Assembly: GCA_000415965.1 (NCBI GenBank) | Contig: KE356560.1 | Coordinates: forward strand, 1,362,369-1,426,368 | Length of the DNA stretch: 64,000 nucleotides | From: Haloquadratum walsbyi J07HQW1 | GTDB taxonomy: Archaea; Halobacteriota; Halobacteria; Halobacteriales; Haloferacaceae | Direction: 5' to 3' | Translations under genes and position numbers: made by a program | In this document: positions 7,061-39,406 of the stretch, piece by piece | How the letters are laid out: every line of letters starts with the position of its first letter | Numbering within the stretch: the first letter of the stretch is position 1 | The notes under the pieces: model-generated | Databases searched by the model: none | What the model was told of the DNA's origin: nothing | Seen by the model: only the letters and a program-made list of their open reading frames with translations

Positions 7061-7510
7061 TATTATAATAAAACTCGAATATATTATGAGATATCAGTTG
7101 CAGACCCATTTACACCCCTATCATAATAAAATACGCGAGATACCGTATCCTCCAGCGTCGACTCCGGATATTAGAACTTCTATTATATCATCATTGGACC
7201 TCATAGATGTCTCTGGCTCGAATCGCCCGCCCTCGTTCTGTTCTTGATTGCCACCCACGAGCCAGGAAACAGACTATCAGGAGTTCAGCCTTCTGTCTCT
7301 GAGTAGATAGCTACCGGAGGTCACTGATAATAAAAAGCCGCGCTCGGGCATCGACTCGAACTCTTCGTCGCTCACAGGTCGGTTCTGTCTTTCACTCCGT
7401 GCCATTTTTTGAACCGCTTGATATATCCTCCGACGCTCTCGCGTGCATCTTCTTCGACGGCATCGAAGCCCTTGTTGACTGGGATCAGCGGCGAGACATC
7501 TCTGGTATAC
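7061..7510. other. Intergenic region with overlapping minus-strand coding fragments
   Basis: Minus-strand frames between about 7290 and 7500 read GFDAVEEDARESVGGYIK and, in an overlapping frame, MARSERQNRP followed by SDEEFESMPERG. They look haloarchaeal but lack starts or sensible ends. They are probably remnants of one gene broken by frameshifts. Family not recognised. Confidence 0.3.
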
Positions 7511-7762
7511 TCACGCTATTTCATGCCAATAATCAGCAGTGCGATAAAATATAAAGAGAATCGCATTAAGCACGCCGACGATTGCAAATAATCCTCCAAG
7601 CTGCGTTAATACCCGCTCGAAGGAACTCGTAAATTCAGTCAGACCATGGCTAAAAAACGCGGCAATCAGTCCCCAGATAAGAAGGATCGTGGCGATACGC
7701 GCACCATCTGCGACGTAATCGACGACAGACTGTGATTCTGGAATGGGGGGTACCGTCAACAC
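7511..7762 (-). CDS. Small two-span membrane protein (83 residues)
   Basis: Unknown family. After a short acidic N-terminus there are two hydrophobic segments, about residues 24-42 (ATILLIWGLIAAFF) and 52-73 (TQLGGLFAIVGVLNAILFIF), ending in a short polar tail. The intervening loop carries SSFERV. The layout suggests a cytoplasmic-membrane protein of haloarchaeal type. It stands alone between gene-free stretches. A small helper or stress membrane peptide is possible, but nothing in the sequence decides this. Confidence 0.55.
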   Translation of the reverse strand: MLTVPPIPESQSVVDYVADGARIATILLIWGLIAAFFSHGLTEFTSSFERVLTQLGGLFAIVGVLNAILFIFYRTADYWHEIA

Positions 7763-8043
7763 ATACTCTAGTCACGACAATCTTACTTAGTGGCACCGAT
7801 ACACACACTCAGTCATTAATTCCAGTTCACGCTCTCACAACAGTCCGTTGAACTCCCTGCTTTGGAACGCACTCTGAATGTGAATGCAGACTGTCTCCTC
7901 TCGATTCAGTAGATCAATTCTAACAGCACTCCGGTGGTTGTCGCTCTGAACCTGAACTGATTAATATAGAGAATATATTCAGTTCCGGTGAGCGGAACTC
8001 TCTGTGAGTCACGTCATCGAATCGATAGTCACCGATTGCACAT

Positions 8044-32536: not shown

Positions 32537-32657
32537 CAGTTGGTGGGACTGTGACTTGATATTCGACCGTGAAGCAGAACGCCCACACAGGCGTGCTAGG
32601 TGAGATAACTACGAGTGTGGGTTCGGAAAGAAACAGTGCTCAAAGTGCCACCGACTG
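32537..32657 (+). mobile_element. CAGTYG-family MITE copy, full length
   Basis: CAGTTGGTGGGACTGTGA at the left and AGTGCCACCGACTG at the right form the clearest terminal inverted repeat of the family (10 bases pair exactly apart from one T/C). Core: CCACACAGGCG and GTGTGGGTTCGGAAAGAAAC. 121 bases. Confidence 0.8.
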
Positions 32658-32900
32658 CTATGAGACCACAGCGACAGTGCAATCAATCTCAAAGTTTTCG
32701 ATGTGTCGACAGTGGACGTATGATTTCGATAGATACTCACTCATGAATACAATCGCAGTATATCGGGTTTCATACTTGGGGTATCATATGTATCAGGCAC
32801 ATACACTCAGCAGACAATATTTATACAATGTCATCAATGTCGAAACCAACTGGATAGATATGCATACAATCACTATCTCACTATTACCCGTCATCGTATT

Positions 32901-33671
32901 ATGAAGCGACGTATGCTGATTCGAGCTCTTATCGGGAGTATCGCTGTCGGAGGCACAGCAGGTTGTATTCGCGCGTTTCAGTCTGATCAATCACCACCTC
33001 CGCGCAAATCAAATGTCATCCGCGATATCAGTGTGATGAATAACGGTGAGACACTGAGAATAACGATTGTTCCAGATGAGTCACGATGGGTGATGACTCG
33101 ACGAGAAATGAACGCTGCATCCTTACAAGCCCAATATGTGGATACAACCAATCCCCTCGGCTGGAATCACCGTGCCATCATGGAGATTGATGCAGGACTG
33201 GACACAGTATCCCCAATTGGGACAGTTGAAGCAGCAAAAGGAAGAGGCGCAACCGGAAGAGGACGCGGTGGGTTCTCATCTGCACCACGTACATCGAATG
33301 GTCGCGCGTGGTATGGTGGTGGCGCATACGCGGGAGCATGGTATAATAACCACGATGATGAAGTCTCTCGCGTCCCAGTCACGATTGACACACTTGGGAT
33401 TGGATTTATTGGCGATAATGATACATTCACTGAACGGTCGCCTGGACCTGGACCCATCAACTGGGACACGACCTACGATGACCCGACTGGAGACATCCAA
33501 TCTGATCTTAATCCGCGGAGCGGATGGTACAGAGTCGGTGCGGATATCAACGCTGAACTCGCCGGTGGTGGAACCAGACCTCTTGGATGGGAGTGTATTG
33601 ACCTTCGTGTTCGATCCAATGGGAATGACGAAGAAATAACGAAGAGATGGAAGGTTTCACCACGAATATAG
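32901..33671 (+). CDS. Predicted Tat-type lipoprotein of unknown function
   Basis: A 256-residue exported protein. Twin Arg at residues 3-4 (MKRRMLIRAL), a hydrophobic core and a lipobox GTAGC with Cys at residue 22 predict Tat export and lipid anchoring on the outer face of the membrane, usual for haloarchaea. The mature part has beta-rich ends and a middle Gly/Arg/Ser-rich segment around 115-155 (GRGATGRGRGGF, AWYGGGAYAGAWY) that is probably disordered. It ends in WECIDLRVRSNG, a possible Ig-like strand. It opens the plus-strand block with the polyamine-synthase-like and channel genes (124-base gap). Family not recognised. Confidence 0.7.
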   Translation: MKRRMLIRALIGSIAVGGTAGCIRAFQSDQSPPPRKSNVIRDISVMNNGETLRITIVPDESRWVMTRREMNAASLQAQYVDTTNPLGWNHRAIMEIDAGLDTVSPIGTVEAAKGRGATGRGRGGFSSAPRTSNGRAWYGGGAYAGAWYNNHDDEVSRVPVTIDTLGIGFIGDNDTFTERSPGPGPINWDTTYDDPTGDIQSDLNPRSGWYRVGADINAELAGGGTRPLGWECIDLRVRSNGNDEEITKRWKVSPRI

Positions 33672-33795
33672 TCATCTCCACAATGGCAGGTTCCCGTTAT
33701 CTTACCACACTCACCCCCGATCATAATTCAAATCTTGATCCACGCTTGTCGCATATGGTAATTGCCTCTATCATCCACTCCAATAGTTACAACCA

Positions 33796-35625
33796 GTGAA
33801 GCGGCTCATAACCCCGTCGGCGCAAACCAGCCTACATGCTATTACCTTCCTCGTTGCGTTCTGTAGCTTTACCTATGAACTTGCATACTCAGAGTTATTG
33901 ACTGTGATGTATGGCGGGACGGTCACTCAGTATGGATTGACAATTGGTATTTTCTTTTCATCGCTTGGGGTTGGATCTTACATCGCTAAACAGTTCGATA
34001 AAACCCGTCCTGAGAATGTCTTTCGCACCGAGCTTTATCTAGCATTTATCGCTCCTGTTGGTCTATTATTTATCATCTGGATCAATACGGCTGCACTGCC
34101 GCAACTCCTTCCGGAGATACTCCTTGGATTGCTGGCTCGTCTTCCAGTCGTCGGGATTGGCGTCTTATCAGGCTTCGAACTTCCACTGTTACTTGCACTT
34201 GTCAATGATTTAGACTCACCCTCGTTATCATCGGGAGTGCGGCGAATAACGAATGGGACCGACCGAGTGATCAATACGGTTATTGGAATATTCTTTCATA
34301 CATCTCACTCACGCAGTGAATATGATACCTACTCTACAGTTCTTGCAATGGACTATCTTGGAGGACTGATCAGCGCTTTGCTCTATGTTTTTCTCCTATA
34401 TCCGAGCGTTGGGCTTATTATCTCTATTTTCGCCCTCGCGCTCATTAATGTCGTCGCGGCTCTGTTCTTTATTTGCCGATTCAGCTCTCGACCATGGGGA
34501 ATCCTTGCCGAAGGCGACCGTGATATCATCACTCACGAACGAACAGTGTTGGTCGTGATTACGATTGTACTCACAGCAACGCTTGGTGGAGCCGTCATCT
34601 CTCACCAGACAGTTGATAACACGCTAACAGAGTATTATCTTGAAGGGAACATCGAACAAGAGTATCCGCCTGGGACCGTCGATGCTGAGATCACGACCCA
34701 GTTCACCACCCAATATCAACACGTCGTGCAGTATAATCGTACCTGGAAGGGAAGTAGTTCGAACCCACTTTTTGCCGGGCAGACAGAGCGATGTCTCCGT
34801 CTTGACACAGCAATCCAGGTATGTGATAGTACAGCACGTCCATATCATAATGGACTGGTTGATGTCCCTCTCTCAATGTATCCAAACACCACAGATACTG
34901 ACGTGCTTCTCGTTGGTGGCGGTGACTGGATTGCGCTTGATCACCTTCGTCAAGAGAATGTTTCCGTTGATCATGTCGATATTGACGCAGAATTCATGCA
35001 ATATGCCAAAACGAACTCATTCCTCAGAGAGTATCATAATAACGCATATACTTACGAGCATGTCGAGACGTATCAGGCTGACATCTACGATTACTTGCAG
35101 CGGACAGATGCACAGTATGATGTGATTTTGCTTGACCTACCTGGTGCGAAAACTGATGATCTGCTTCCGGTCTACTCGACACAGTTCTATCGATTATTAA
35201 AGGACTCACTCACAGAAAGCGGTGTTGTCGCGACATGGGGCTACTCGCGATATACATATTCATCTCATCAGAAAGCATACTTCAACACTGTCTCACAGGC
35301 AGGTTTCACCCACTATCAGTCATATTATGCATATGATGATTATACTGGCAATGGTGAGACTCGACGCGGAGAGCTGTTTTATCTATTTGCTCCGGATTCA
35401 TCACGACCGGTCATTACCCCTGCGAATGGGACTCACTACGTCACAGAATATCGAGAACGATACCAACCGAAAACGTGGCGCCCAATACCCACATATCGTG
35501 GTGTAAGGCCGAATCTGCTCTTTCATCCGAATTATGAGATCCTTATCGACACTCAGCGTAAGCAAGCACCGCTCCCAAATCGAGTTAATCGATTTCAGAA
35601 TATGACACTCTCAGATTTACTATAA
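33796..35625 (+). CDS. Membrane-embedded spermidine/spermine-synthase-like protein
   Basis: A 609-residue protein with an N-terminal membrane domain (about eight spans, residues 14-275) joined to a soluble aminopropyltransferase-fold domain (about 300-560). The membrane part begins CSFTYELAYSELLTVMYGG, typical of this class. The synthase fold shows the SAM-like loop VLLVGGGDWIALDHL near 375-390, the acidic strand end VDHVDIDAEFM, and YDVILLDLPGAKTDDLLPVY where true spermidine synthases have the DSSDP gate. GGGDW for GGGDG and LDLPG for DSSDP mean polyamine synthesis is not assured. The start is GTG. The next gene begins two bases after its stop, so they form an operon. In bacteria related fusions sit with DUF350, DUF4178 and DUF2617 genes. 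Confidence 0.8.
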   Translation: MKRLITPSAQTSLHAITFLVAFCSFTYELAYSELLTVMYGGTVTQYGLTIGIFFSSLGVGSYIAKQFDKTRPENVFRTELYLAFIAPVGLLFIIWINTAALPQLLPEILLGLLARLPVVGIGVLSGFELPLLLALVNDLDSPSLSSGVRRITNGTDRVINTVIGIFFHTSHSRSEYDTYSTVLAMDYLGGLISALLYVFLLYPSVGLIISIFALALINVVAALFFICRFSSRPWGILAEGDRDIITHERTVLVVITIVLTATLGGAVISHQTVDNTLTEYYLEGNIEQEYPPGTVDAEITTQFTTQYQHVVQYNRTWKGSSSNPLFAGQTERCLRLDTAIQVCDSTARPYHNGLVDVPLSMYPNTTDTDVLLVGGGDWIALDHLRQENVSVDHVDIDAEFMQYAKTNSFLREYHNNAYTYEHVETYQADIYDYLQRTDAQYDVILLDLPGAKTDDLLPVYSTQFYRLLKDSLTESGVVATWGYSRYTYSSHQKAYFNTVSQAGFTHYQSYYAYDDYTGNGETRRGELFYLFAPDSSRPVITPANGTHYVTEYRERYQPKTWRPIPTYRGVRPNLLFHPNYEILIDTQRKQAPLPNRVNRFQNMTLSDLL

Positions 35626-35627
35626 CC

Positions 35628-36146
35628 ATGTCAGAAAAAGAACTCTATCTTATCCAGTCAAAGCACCCACAGTCACTCGATGGCATTGATATTAAAACGA
35701 CTCATGAAACACTGTTTTGTGCACACCCAGCAGAATTTCATATTGTTGGGGAATCCCACGCTGTAAGTGTGCCGGCACTTCCGTTTTATGAGATTTTTTC
35801 CTGTCAGCCAGTACGGACAGAGCAGCCACCGGATACGACACTCAATACGATTGAACTCTGTGTGAACACACAACTCACGACAGTTCACACGCTCGGAGAT
35901 GAGCATACGAGTATTCAGACGACCGTCCGAATTGAGCCACTTGAATCATTTCCAGATGCAAGGTCGTTCACGATTGTATACAAATTCGATACAGACGCAT
36001 ACACAGCAATCAACTGTCTCTCACAACGGGAGTATCGAACCTATCATACGTATCCTGAACACGATCTGACGGTTATTTCATGTCATCAAATTTGTTCTGC
36101 ATCGAATATAGAGCCGCGAGATATGATCGAAGCAAGCACACAGTGA
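35628..36146 (+). CDS. DUF2617-like protein, partner of the polyamine-synthase-like protein
   Basis: A soluble 172-residue protein. The middle VSVPALPFYEIFSCQP and the end DAYTAINCLSQREYRTYHTYPEHDLTVISCHQI match the layout of DUF2617 proteins, whose end contains AlTal ... TwHtYPe ... vvxT. That family is adjacent to polyamine aminopropyltransferases in many actinobacterial and cyanobacterial genomes, which fits the two-base spacing to the gene before it. The biochemical role of the family is unknown. The domain call is from memory of the motif and should be tested with a profile. Cys-rich for a haloarchaeal protein (seven Cys). Confidence 0.6.
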   Translation: MSEKELYLIQSKHPQSLDGIDIKTTHETLFCAHPAEFHIVGESHAVSVPALPFYEIFSCQPVRTEQPPDTTLNTIELCVNTQLTTVHTLGDEHTSIQTTVRIEPLESFPDARSFTIVYKFDTDAYTAINCLSQREYRTYHTYPEHDLTVISCHQICSASNIEPRDMIEASTQ

Positions 36147-36186
36147 TAAATAACAGACAGTTACTACTCATCTTAGCATACGACGA

Positions 36187-38382
36187 ATGAACTGCCAATA
36201 TACAGTTACTCCAGACGAGAATCAGTTCTCATCATTGACAGCCACATGGTCGTGTCCACACGAGTCCCATCCAGAGGACGACCGCTGTCTCTTTCATATG
36301 ACTCCCGAAGAACGGAGACACCACGACATTACACCACAGGATGTTCATTCGACACTTCTCTCCGAGTTAGAGGCTGAAGCAAACGATAAAAAGGAGTTTA
36401 TTGGGGCGCACATCCCATATCTTGATCTTGATTATATCGATGTTGAGACAGACAATCAATATCCACTTGACTTTCGACATACGACAATCGAAAACGGAAT
36501 CTCTGCTGCTCATGCACGATTTGAGGAACGTGTTGACCTCCGGAATAGTACGGTCAACGGCTTAGACGCACCAAATTGTGAATTTGAAGACGGATTACTC
36601 GCTGCTGAGGCGGTGTTCACTGACGTGGTCACTCTTTCTGAGACAGTTTTTACTGGTGATATGGTTGATTGTGTCGAGACGACCTTTGAGCAGTCCCTCG
36701 TGTGTGAGGAAATAACAGTTGCTGTTGATGTCTCATTCGAGAATGCAGCATTCAACGGTCCTGTCTCATTCGATGGTGCACGGTTTGCCGAACAGGCAAG
36801 CACCGTCGATGAGAATATTATTTTCAATCATGCAACCTTTCATAATATCGCCTCATTCAGACATACCTCATTTTATCATACGTCGTTTCAAGACGTCACA
36901 TTTCATGACACCGCTGTTTTTGAGCACGCTACAGCAAACGGCACTATCCGACTAGACGGGGCAACGTTTCATGCCGATGCTGATTTCGATGAGTTACGCT
37001 GTGAGAAAGACATCTCCTTCAGCGACGCGGTGTTTCATGGAGAAGCCTCCTTCAGAGGGGTATCAGTTATTGGGGGCGCAGACGTGCTTGCGGATGACTT
37101 CTCATTAGTGAATACCAGATTTACCGCGAGGGCTACCTTTGAGCAGGGTACATTTGGGTTCACGAACGCAGAAGGAGCAGAATTCAACACATGCGTAAGT
37201 TTTGAACGGAGCACATTCACCGATGATGCAGCCTTTATTGATGTGACATTCGGTGATACCGCTGACTTTGATGAGGTGATCTTCGATGGTGATGTCACAT
37301 TCACAGACAGCGTCTTCAGCGCGAACGCTGTCTTTCGAGGTGCCGAATTCAACGGGGGAACAAATTATCTCGCATCTGATGCAGTGTTCACTGACGTGAT
37401 ATTCACTCAAACGGCTGACTTCAGTGATACAGATATCGTCTCAGTTGAGTTTCAGACAACTGAGTTCCGAGCAGCCGTCGACTTTACTAACGCTGAGATC
37501 ACTGAGACGCTCATCATTGAAACGCCAACGTTCATCAATGATCCATATCTCGATTTTACTGATGCAACAATTGAGGAAGGAACAATCATGCAACCAGAGC
37601 GTGGGTGGGGATATTTCGATTTTACACAGGCAACAATCGGAGATGTTCTGTTGACAGCGGCCAACCCGGCTGATAGACGAGAATTACTCGATTATTTTCG
37701 ATTTTGTGATACAACGTTCGATACGTTTGACTTCTCACAACATCTTGAGTATCTTGACCGAAACAACTGGGTGCTTCACAATTTTGCTCAACCAGAAACT
37801 GAGTTCACACCAGCAGTTGAACTCACACCAGCACACGTCGAAAAGACATACTTGAAAGCAAAATCGAGTGCTTCAGAGCAGAGTAATATCAAGGCTGCTG
37901 GTGAATTCCGGGTAAAACGACAACAACACGCAAGGAGGAAATTCGCTCAGATTGCAACCGATTCGACAGAGCCAATCCGAACACGAATCAAAAACGGACT
38001 CCGGACAGCAGAGAATCTTTTTCTTGAATTTTCGTGTGGATACGGACTTCGCCTGTATCGAATCACTACCGTCTTTATTCTATTTCCACTGATAGCTGCG
38101 ATTCTCTTTGCTTTTGGAGGACCGCTTTTCGAAACTGGTGCTGGACAGACCTCACTGTCTCAGATACTGGGTGAAATCGTCATAGATACCGAGGCTCAAA
38201 CTGGCACTCGCACTTTCCTGCTCAACGTATACTTTGCATATATTACATTTCTGACAATCGGATATGGTGGCATCGGTCCGCTGGGTCTCGGGGCTCGATT
38301 TCTTGCCGCCATCCTTGTTTATCTTAATGTGATTCTCGCCGGACTCTTCATTTACTCCCTAATCAAGCGGAGCGAGATTTAG
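36187..38382 (+). CDS. Pentapeptide-like-repeat protein fused to a K+-channel-type pore
   Basis: A 731-residue protein. Residues 1-85 carry WSCPHESHPEDDRCLFH, a possible small metal site. Residues about 90-460 form a long right-handed beta-helix of A(D/N)F-type pentapeptide-like repeats: FRHTSFYHTSFQDVTFHDTA, FTDSVFSANAVFRGAEF and many similar units, rich in Phe, Asp and Thr. A mostly helical linker follows (about 500-600). The C-terminus has two spans, about 610-635 and 703-725, flanking a pore loop ending TIGYGGIGP at about 690-698, the selectivity filter of K+ channels (Ion_trans_2). I infer a cytoplasmic beta-helix regulating a two-span channel. It lies 40 bases after the DUF2617-like gene in the same operon. 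Confidence 0.85.
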   Translation: MNCQYTVTPDENQFSSLTATWSCPHESHPEDDRCLFHMTPEERRHHDITPQDVHSTLLSELEAEANDKKEFIGAHIPYLDLDYIDVETDNQYPLDFRHTTIENGISAAHARFEERVDLRNSTVNGLDAPNCEFEDGLLAAEAVFTDVVTLSETVFTGDMVDCVETTFEQSLVCEEITVAVDVSFENAAFNGPVSFDGARFAEQASTVDENIIFNHATFHNIASFRHTSFYHTSFQDVTFHDTAVFEHATANGTIRLDGATFHADADFDELRCEKDISFSDAVFHGEASFRGVSVIGGADVLADDFSLVNTRFTARATFEQGTFGFTNAEGAEFNTCVSFERSTFTDDAAFIDVTFGDTADFDEVIFDGDVTFTDSVFSANAVFRGAEFNGGTNYLASDAVFTDVIFTQTADFSDTDIVSVEFQTTEFRAAVDFTNAEITETLIIETPTFINDPYLDFTDATIEEGTIMQPERGWGYFDFTQATIGDVLLTAANPADRRELLDYFRFCDTTFDTFDFSQHLEYLDRNNWVLHNFAQPETEFTPAVELTPAHVEKTYLKAKSSASEQSNIKAAGEFRVKRQQHARRKFAQIATDSTEPIRTRIKNGLRTAENLFLEFSCGYGLRLYRITTVFILFPLIAAILFAFGGPLFETGAGQTSLSQILGEIVIDTEAQTGTRTFLLNVYFAYITFLTIGYGGIGPLGLGARFLAAILVYLNVILAGLFIYSLIKRSEI

Positions 38383-38440
38383 CGTTGAGTAACTCAGCAA
38401 AAGCATAATACACACTCAAGCGGGTACAATCTTACAGACA

Positions 38441-39406
38441 ATGAGCAATGCGCATACACATGAGTTCACGGGAGATGTCACACTCAATGGGGGTGAGGAA
38501 ACGCCGATTTCGGTCATTGATGCTGAGAATGTCCACTTCAGACGGAATTCGGTGACCGGCAATGTCAAACTCGTCAACCCTGAATACGTATTTTCCTGTC
38601 AACGACCAACCGAACAGACAGTCCAATCAGACGATACAGAAACCACTGTCAGTGGATCAATTGAAGATATTTATCTTCCATACAATGGTGTTGAGGGGAC
38701 CATCGTCATTGATGGCGCACAGGATGTGTATATCGAACCAAATGCAATCAGTGGCGATATCGAGATTGTTGGAGAAGAGCAACTCTTCTATACTCAACTC
38801 ACAGACTCTCCATATGGACATGGCGTCTATGACGCACATGGCGTTGGCTGGAAGCGATCAGTGTCTGTGTCCGATCCCAAACACGGTGTCAGCGTCACTG
38901 GTGGGCGATGCACCGCAGAGATAACAGATGTAACGACAGATATCGAACTGATTGTCTCTGGCTGGAACAACACGATTGATATCACTGGGCGAACAGCAAC
39001 GGTCACGGTCTATCTACTTGGGTCACAAAATACCGTGACGACGAGTCCATATATCGACATTGAGACAGACACACAGGCCGGCATCGAGAATACCATCGAA
39101 CAGGAACCAGTCCCTGCCAGTGATATCATCGAGACGACTAGAGAGGAAGCATATGCTGGTCACTTACTCGGACGAGACACCGTCACGTTTCAGGAACCAG
39201 CCACAGACAAAGACTACTGTCCAAACTGTGGTGCGAGTGCGAGTACTGTTATTACTCGTCGTCAAGAAGATGCGTTCTTTGTCACGAACGCTCCCGTGTA
39301 TCGATTCGATGCTGGAGGGGATTCATATGAATGTGAGAACTGCTCACTGAATGCCGCCCCAGAGGTGCAGTTGTCCGAAGAGGAACGTAAACAAGTGTTA
39401 GGCTAA
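38441..39406 (+). CDS. Beta-rich protein with C-terminal zinc ribbon
   Basis: A soluble acidic protein of 321 residues, family not recognised. Residues 5-230 are built of short strand-turn units (DVTLNGGEETPISVIDAENV, SGSIEDIYLPYNGVEGTIVI, GNNTIDITG-like stretches), suggesting a beta-helix or stacked strands. The end has CPNCG near 270 and CENC near 303, two CxxC pairs that should bind one zinc. It follows the channel protein by 58 bases and probably ends the operon. Both contain beta-helix-like repeats, so they may interact, but this is inference. Confidence 0.65.
   Translation: MSNAHTHEFTGDVTLNGGEETPISVIDAENVHFRRNSVTGNVKLVNPEYVFSCQRPTEQTVQSDDTETTVSGSIEDIYLPYNGVEGTIVIDGAQDVYIEPNAISGDIEIVGEEQLFYTQLTDSPYGHGVYDAHGVGWKRSVSVSDPKHGVSVTGGRCTAEITDVTTDIELIVSGWNNTIDITGRTATVTVYLLGSQNTVTTSPYIDIETDTQAGIENTIEQEPVPASDIIETTREEAYAGHLLGRDTVTFQEPATDKDYCPNCGASASTVITRRQEDAFFVTNAPVYRFDAGGDSYECENCSLNAAPEVQLSEEERKQVLG

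Follow-up and report, generated by a model that had tools for sequence, protein, structure and literature searches.

A five-gene run on the plus strand

The window analysed here is a stretch of 64,000 nucleotides from Haloquadratum walsbyi J07HQW1 (assembly GCA_000415965.1, contig KE356560.1, positions 1,362,369 to 1,426,368 of the forward strand). Our subject is a run of five genes in it, one of which encodes a DUF2617 protein that we strongly infer to be a divergent member of the S-adenosylmethionine (AdoMet, SAM) decarboxylase (AdoMetDC) family. An earlier note on this DNA had described five plus-strand genes with short gaps, and all five open reading frames (ORFs) are indeed there, in the order LIP, SPD, DUF2617, PPC and ZNB, separated by 124, 2, 40 and 58 bases (coordinates below are those of the window, plus strand). 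The protein families it had named also hold up: Spermine_synth, DUF2617, Pentapeptide_3 and Ion_trans_2 all match above their curated cut-offs.

The first gene, LIP (32901..33671), encodes a lipoprotein of the twin-arginine (Tat) type, with the arginine pair at residues 3-4, the lipobox cysteine at Cys22 and a glycine-rich conserved segment in which the orthologue alignment gives the motif GRGATGRGxGGYxSAP...GRAWY (residues 114-147; 33240..33341). All 22 LIP orthologues compared have the RR pair and the lipobox GC, as expected of the Tat lipoprotein proposed before; no Pfam family matched LIP. A small Gly/Ser-rich transmembrane (TM) protein occupies the matching place in a bacterial operon (L155:2034-2294), a correspondence that is one of analogy only. 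In Halorussus aquaticus two tandem LIP copies precede SPD (L125:6448-7143, 7261-7947), the second without the usual SPVG segment.

The fourth gene, PPC (36187..38382), encodes a chain of 731 residues in which a pentapeptide-repeat beta-helix is followed by a pore domain with two TM segments (2TM). Pfam recognises both parts (Pentapeptide_3, 3.3e-33; Ion_trans_2, 27.5 bits against a cut-off of 22.5). The selectivity-filter motif TIGYG lies at residues 690-694 (38254..38268), and the pattern T-[IV]-G-Y-G recurs in 20/20 aligned PPCs (17 with I, three with V), in keeping with the beta-helix protein with a TIGYG pore that had been reported at first sight. A PPC profile run against PDB sequences retrieved designed and natural pentapeptide proteins as well as K+ channel pores (TOK1, KCNQ, KirBac). 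Judged by its profile, by the filter lying between two TM segments and by these PDB matches, PPC appears to be a K+-channel-type pore, for which conduction is predicted; it lacks a signal peptide, so that the beta-helix is probably cytosolic. While PPC resembles both pentapeptide-repeat proteins and 2TM K+ channels in its profile and PDB matches and in its TxGYG filter, it differs from them in that both are fused in one chain with a conserved linker. Related pentapeptide-repeat proteins in two haloarchaea (L012, L013; genomes G018, G029) are very long, with open frames of between 1175 and 1388 residues, and some of them extend as far as the pore region. Around one PPC orthologue of 41% identity (L057, genome G042), the 16 kb that were read contain none of LIP, SPD, DUF2617 and ZNB.

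The fifth gene, ZNB (38441..39406), encodes a protein without a signal peptide whose AlphaFold model (pLDDT 87.7) is beta-solenoid-like with a C-terminal zinc ribbon. The four ribbon cysteines, C260-C263 ... C298-C301 (39218..39343), are invariant in 34/34 orthologues, which agrees with the earlier description as a zinc-ribbon protein. The only Pfam family reached was DUF3060, below its cut-off, and the model had no PDB match at E <= 0.001. A bactofilin-like polymer is not claimed, the fold search having given bactofilin 6rib_A only at E 4.9. At L101, L102, L103, L129 (Halorientalis), L106 and L107 the ZNB profile matches only from about position 110, with the first solenoid repeats missing, or the gene is split over two frames.

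DUF2617 as a candidate AdoMet decarboxylase

The third gene, D2617 (35628..36146), is the proposed fused-duplicate AdoMetDC. By itself the window protein matches Pfam DUF2617 (27.8 bits, cut-off 22.3) and no other Pfam family. Its AlphaFold model (pLDDT 89.4) led Foldseek, run against the PDB, to human AdoMetDC 1msv (probability 0.98, E 0.06, TMq 0.51) and to T. maritima AdoMetDC 1vr7 (probability 0.91, E 0.03). When 35 DUF2617 orthologues were searched, Pfam returned three further families only, with AdoMet_dc best at 5.1e-4 (3/35 members) and SAM_decarbox at 0.031. The best NCBIfam match is likewise an AdoMetDC (0.052), as are one of two matches in a PDB sequence search (E 1.1) and a named entry at rank 5 in a viral fold library. 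Among the ten matches listed from a phage tblastn search, six are annotated as AdoMetDC, all at E above 1, and the top four are hypothetical Erwinia phage proteins matched in the N-half of DUF2617.

Against a SpeD profile of 13 sequences, of which two are identical, profile-profile comparison by hhalign returned P 4.1e-5 and a score of 34.8. Unrelated profiles of the module served as controls and reached P >=0.35 against DUF2617 and >=0.029 against SpeD, and the highest score among 300 column shuffles was 24.7. After splitting of the profile, the C-half aligned at P 8.5e-6 and the N-half at P 0.04, both on the same SpeD segment; a direct comparison of the two halves gave no signal.

The alignment also bears on catalysis. 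Ser43-His44 coincides with the Ser-His pair where SpeD is cleaved, with S43 in register with SpeD S63, and Cys59 falls on the catalytic Cys, H140 and C59 being aligned to the SpeD motifs IHTWPE and FTC. In T. maritima AdoMetDC, S63 becomes the pyruvoyl group, and H68 and C83 act in processing and catalysis (PMC10407285). By this correspondence Ser43 (codon 35754..35756), the S63 equivalent in the N-half, is the proposed pyruvoyl-forming serine, a present and conserved residue at which cleavage is predicted; Cys59 (35802..35804), the C83 equivalent, is the proposed proton donor of the same half. For the C-half core, F120xxxA124xT126 ... T138xH140TxPE144 (35985..36059), our references were human H243/S229 and the strand-12 Glu. 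The human enzyme uses Ser229 and His243 for its processing (PMC3975893) and binds the ribose through a Glu located where the His strand ends (PMC1282579), roles that H140 and E144 may share as processing and ribose-binding residues. S43, C59, F120, T126, H140 and E144 are all invariant in 35 haloarchaeal sequences, and a bacterial DUF2617 from Chloroflexota, at 16% identity, shares S43, H44, C59, F120, A124, T126 and H140. The putative cleavage site is confined to the first half, and the second half aligns most cleanly; this layout looks like that described for eukaryotic class-2 enzymes.

DUF2617 is comparable to SpeD (class 1b) and eukaryotic class 2 AdoMetDCs in its N-half Ser-His and Cys, its C-half FxPxAxT ... 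TxHTxPE, its apparent beta-sandwich with a weak fold match, and its genomic partnering by an aminopropyltransferase. On the other hand, it differs in packing about 170 residues into one chain, in a model nearly without helices, in the variable residue before the serine and in a single-sequence similarity that is hardly ever significant. No single line is conclusive; we make the identification because weak lines concur and because the adjacent gene belongs to the family that uses the AdoMetDC product.

Several observations weigh against this reading. With the TxHTxPE motif masked, the DUF2617-SpeD score drops to 16.2, inside the shuffle range, so that most of the score lies in that motif. Foldseek gave no match for the DUF2617 model at E 0.001 or better. 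The residue before Ser43 is Glu in 10/35 DUF2617 sequences as opposed to 13/13 SpeD sequences, E144 is replaced by Asp in the one bacterial (Chloroflexota) DUF2617 read, and enzymes related to AdoMetDC include decarboxylases of arginine or ornithine (PMC10407285). The first two of these, together with Foldseek E-values above 0.01, would be expected if the likeness were a convergence on one short motif, DUF2617 being an unrelated beta-sandwich enzyme and SPD a part of an envelope-stress module that resembles SAM-dependent methyltransferases. Ravi et al. 2024 point the same way, in that they call DUF2617 a beta-sandwich enzymatic domain and name no relative (PMC11237479). However, Pfam, NCBIfam, PDB sequences, PDB folds, viral folds and phage tblastn, which are partly independent, all put AdoMetDC among the first few non-self matches, mostly weak ones; the N-half aligns in catalytic register; and the adjacent gene encodes the biochemical partner of AdoMetDC. 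We had set the unrelated beta-sandwich aside after the AdoMetDC matches, and we keep it as an alternative of low probability.

We found no identification of DUF2617 as an AdoMetDC in the literature searched, which did not extend to subscription papers or Pfam clan data, so that priority is uncertain. A short plus-strand ORF just 5' of LIP (32569-32904) has a weak match to the DUF2617 profile (E 0.005, model positions 81-140) and resembles a decayed copy of its C-half.

The aminopropyltransferase-like partner and bacterial relatives

The second gene, SPD (33796..35625), encodes a membrane domain of seven TM segments (7TM), as published for H. volcanii homologues, fused to a spermidine/aminopropyltransferase-like domain (Spermine_synth, PF01564; 34840..35307). 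The Pfam match is above its cut-off (1.4e-14) and the C-terminal domain matches solved aminopropyltransferases, but the score falls below every NCBIfam aminopropyltransferase equivalog cut-off. GGGD377, D397, D447 and Y350-H351 are invariant in haloarchaeal SPD, whereas the diamine-binding residues are absent: DSWADSYH has no DE before YH, DxPGAxxDD replaces DLPDP, and the second Asp of DxxD is lost. The altered active-site loops that the earlier note had remarked on are thus real, and they are conserved across haloarchaea. Compared with spermidine synthase (T. thermophilus 1uir), SPD keeps the Rossmann-like domain, GGGD, the acidic D397 of VDID, the first gate-motif Asp and YH, but has the 7TM fusion, neither the acceptor DE nor the second gate-motif Asp, and two invariant cysteines (C333, C343). 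As the acceptor residues are lost, we file SPD as aminopropyltransferase-like and not as a spermidine synthase; its nucleotide site is retained, and its product is probably something other than spermidine. Lost putrescine-binding residues and seven TM segments had already been noted in the H. volcanii SpeE homologues by Prunetti et al. 2016 (PMC5178350). One of the H. volcanii proteins, HVO_B0357, for which a GGGD(W/Y) motif is reported (PMC6267482), is by that motif apparently the SPD of the module in this species.

According to published work on H. volcanii, no AdoMetDC could be located in any sequenced halophile, and the same work raises the question of what role the two SpeE homologues have (PMC5178350). 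Classical SpeD was found in 0/24 haloarchaeal genomes carrying the module or parts of it, these being the 22 genomes with DUF2617 and two of the same genus whose loci carry all five genes. Among 14 control genomes, DUF2617 occurs in Corynebacterium glutamicum and H. volcanii and SpeD in eight others, with zero overlap, and the single Chloroflexota genome found with DUF2617 has no SpeD, though 22/29 genomes of its class do. Within the haloarchaea, however, this exclusion is weak evidence, as SpeD occurs in only 2/145 genomes. Those two (L161, genome G168; L162, genome G126) carry classical SpeD contrary to the published statement, and neither has DUF2617. DUF2617 itself is patchily distributed, being present in 22/292 haloarchaeal genomes and 11/77 genera in a class-wide search. 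No relatives were found in viral contigs, and a search for actinobacterial DUF2617 on plasmids and phages likewise found none, turning up the Chloroflexota operon instead. The absence of SpeD had at first been read as ruling out any use of decarboxylated SAM by SPD; this argument was withdrawn once DUF2617 was seen to resemble AdoMetDC.

A second alternative accepts descent from AdoMetDC and supposes that DUF2617 acts on another substrate, as a pyruvoyl-dependent amino-acid decarboxylase, or senses SAM or a product, with SPD as a SAM-binding regulator that transfers no aminopropyl group. SpeD homologues have turned into arginine and ornithine decarboxylases several times (PMC10407285), the acceptor site of SPD is degraded, and residue 42 of DUF2617, before the serine, varies. 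However, F120, H140 and E144 align with substrate-site positions and are invariant in haloarchaea, in H. volcanii a different protein, HVO_1958, already serves as arginine decarboxylase (PMC5178350), and the pairing of DUF2617 with an aminopropyltransferase-like gene is almost without exception, one such gene, in a bacterium (L156), having a canonical active site. We consider this alternative rather unlikely, if less so than convergence.

The link to bacterial DUF350/DUF4178/DUF2617/spermidine-synthase operons drawn in the earlier note finds support in the literature and in the genomes read (L142, L155/L156). The work of Ravi et al. 2024 (PMC11237479) describes bacterial operons of a 7TM-spermidine synthase, DUF350, DUF4178 and lipoproteins, with variants that have DUF2617 or a K+ channel. 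We read such operons in Alteromonas (SPD, SpeD, TelA, DUF4178, DUF350), Novosphingobium (L142; SPFH, DUF4178, DUF350, SPD, an oxidoreductase, SpeD) and Chloroflexota (L155/L156; DUF4178, DUF2617, a Gly-rich TM protein, DUF350, SPD). The closest likeness is to the PspA/CesT-Tir or DUF4247+DUF2617 operons of that work. There, as here, the spermidine-synthase-like protein with its 7TM fusion clusters with DUF2617, a lipoprotein, a cytosolic protein rich in beta structure and a multi-TM partner, and in one bacterial group a K+ channel is present too; the latter was thus already described, and the channel link is less peculiar to haloarchaea than had been supposed. The haloarchaeal TM partner differs in being a K+-channel-type pore fused to a pentapeptide beta-helix, the beta-solenoid/zinc-ribbon protein stands where DUF4178 would be, and the SPD acceptor site is altered; DUF350, DUF4178 and SpeD are missing from the 24 haloarchaeal genomes. 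The absence of DUF350 and DUF4178 (0/24 each) fits the replacement of both that had been suggested, and it makes the haloarchaeal set a variant, not a member, of the bacterial DUF350/DUF4178 module. None of the five window genes is PspA, the phage-shock protein, by Pfam, a search that covered these five genes.

Other bacterial relatives of SPD stand apart. Full-length relatives in Patescibacteria and Cloacimonadota (L120, L121, L124, L127) have no DUF2617, PPC, LIP or ZNB alongside, and there is no DUF2617 in their genomes. Two of them, in Wolfebacteria and Moraniibacteriota (L120, L121), are lone genes about 34% identical to SPD, with GGGS for GGGD, and no SpeD was found in these genomes either. 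At L131-L138 (Omnitrophota, Bdellovibrionales, Chloroflexota and others) the full SPD is preceded by a copy of its N-terminal region that comprises the 7TM part alone, and at L134 a SpeD gene lies between the two.

Module conservation and a proposed membrane chemistry

The five protein profiles were run over the neighbourhoods of 20 haloarchaeal loci, to which 54 haloarchaeal loci found with SPD alone were added. At these 54 loci LIP was present in 54, DUF2617 in 53, ZNB in 50 and PPC in 43; all five genes stand together at 43/54, several of the others being cut by contig ends. The five-gene set is a real conserved module and no chance run, as the earlier note had surmised in describing an envelope system. 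The closest named SPD matches are in H. walsbyi J07HQW2 (87%) and Haloquadratum sp. J07HQX50 (84%), and in several species the module is carried on plasmids. Conservation of gene order, which had been proposed as a check, holds for one part and fails for the other: LIP-SPD-DUF2617 is always contiguous, in the same order and strand with DUF2617 directly downstream of SPD, whereas ZNB and PPC change position, with at least four arrangements seen, among them placement on the other strand or upstream in divergent orientation. As gene order varies in this way, one transcript is not conserved everywhere. That the members are kept despite rearrangement in at least four haloarchaeal families nevertheless argues for a functional link.

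On balance we favour, with moderate confidence, the proposal that this is a haloarchaeal form of the bacterial membrane-stress module, in which DUF2617 is a decarboxylase that feeds SPD, and the SPD product acts with the lipoprotein and the channel. DUF2617 would be a pyruvoyl-dependent, class-2-like AdoMetDC using Ser43 and Cys59 from its N-half and His140 and Glu144 from its C-half, and it quite likely makes decarboxylated SAM for the neighbouring SPD. SPD in turn would load the aminopropyl group onto an unusual acceptor on the inner face of the membrane, which could be a lipid, a protein or an amine, for instance agmatine; we give this transfer only slightly better than even chances. The product, or a membrane charge altered by it, may then act on the membrane or the channel; PPC and ZNB would form a cytosolic sensing or scaffolding and conducting arm, and LIP the outer arm.

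This last coupling we hold doubtful. The earlier note had a polyamine-like molecule coupled to ion flow, of which the small-molecule part gains strong support from the resemblance of DUF2617 to AdoMetDC, the maker of the aminopropyl donor, while the coupling to the channel stays conjectural. PPC, besides, was not seen near the other genes at 11/54 loci, though contig ends cut several of these. Against the proposal as a whole, an HVO_B0357 deletion strain showed no phenotype in the conditions used (PMC5178350), and spermidine is absent or at trace levels in haloarchaea (PMC5178350), which also argues for an SPD product other than spermidine. The channel could instead be separate cargo: LIP-SPD-DUF2617 would be one unit, and PPC with ZNB a second one that travels along, a K+ channel with the beta-helix as its sensor, serving in osmotic or ionic stress. 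The fixed contiguity of the first three genes, the shifts, strand flips and losses of ZNB and PPC, and the several plasmid-borne copies favour such a split, which is possible though not what we expect; what speaks against it is that in at least four haloarchaeal families the genes were repeatedly kept while being rearranged, and that Ravi et al. report a K+ channel in a related bacterial operon (PMC11237479). This alternative is compatible with the decarboxylase reading and competes solely with the coupling step.

In its widest form our proposal is that DUF2617 represents a compact prokaryotic class of fused-duplicate AdoMetDC, found in haloarchaea, actinobacteria such as Corynebacterium and some Chloroflexota, and feeding a non-polyamine membrane aminopropylation that controls a K+ channel; we advance this version tentatively, as one that may well fail. 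The DUF2617 protein CCP45394.1 is, we presume, from Mycobacterium tuberculosis. A 2005 survey listed M. tuberculosis without an identifiable AdoMetDC (PMC1282579), and Ravi et al. cite CCP45394.1 in an operon of this type (PMC11237479). The bacterial relative of the module has been known since 2024 (PMC11237479), and the new point here is the proposed identification of DUF2617 as a decarboxylase. If DUF2617 is the missing enzyme, the AdoMetDC gaps of halophiles and of M. tuberculosis would close together, and a fused architecture like that of class 2, which has been described as invented by eukaryotes (PMC10407285), would exist in archaea and bacteria. A widespread membrane-stress operon would also gain a concrete chemistry, aminopropylation, with a genetically tractable host at hand. 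Haloarchaea hold molar internal K+ and polyamines are classical pore blockers of K+ channels, and given both, a link between this chemistry and a K+ channel would matter.

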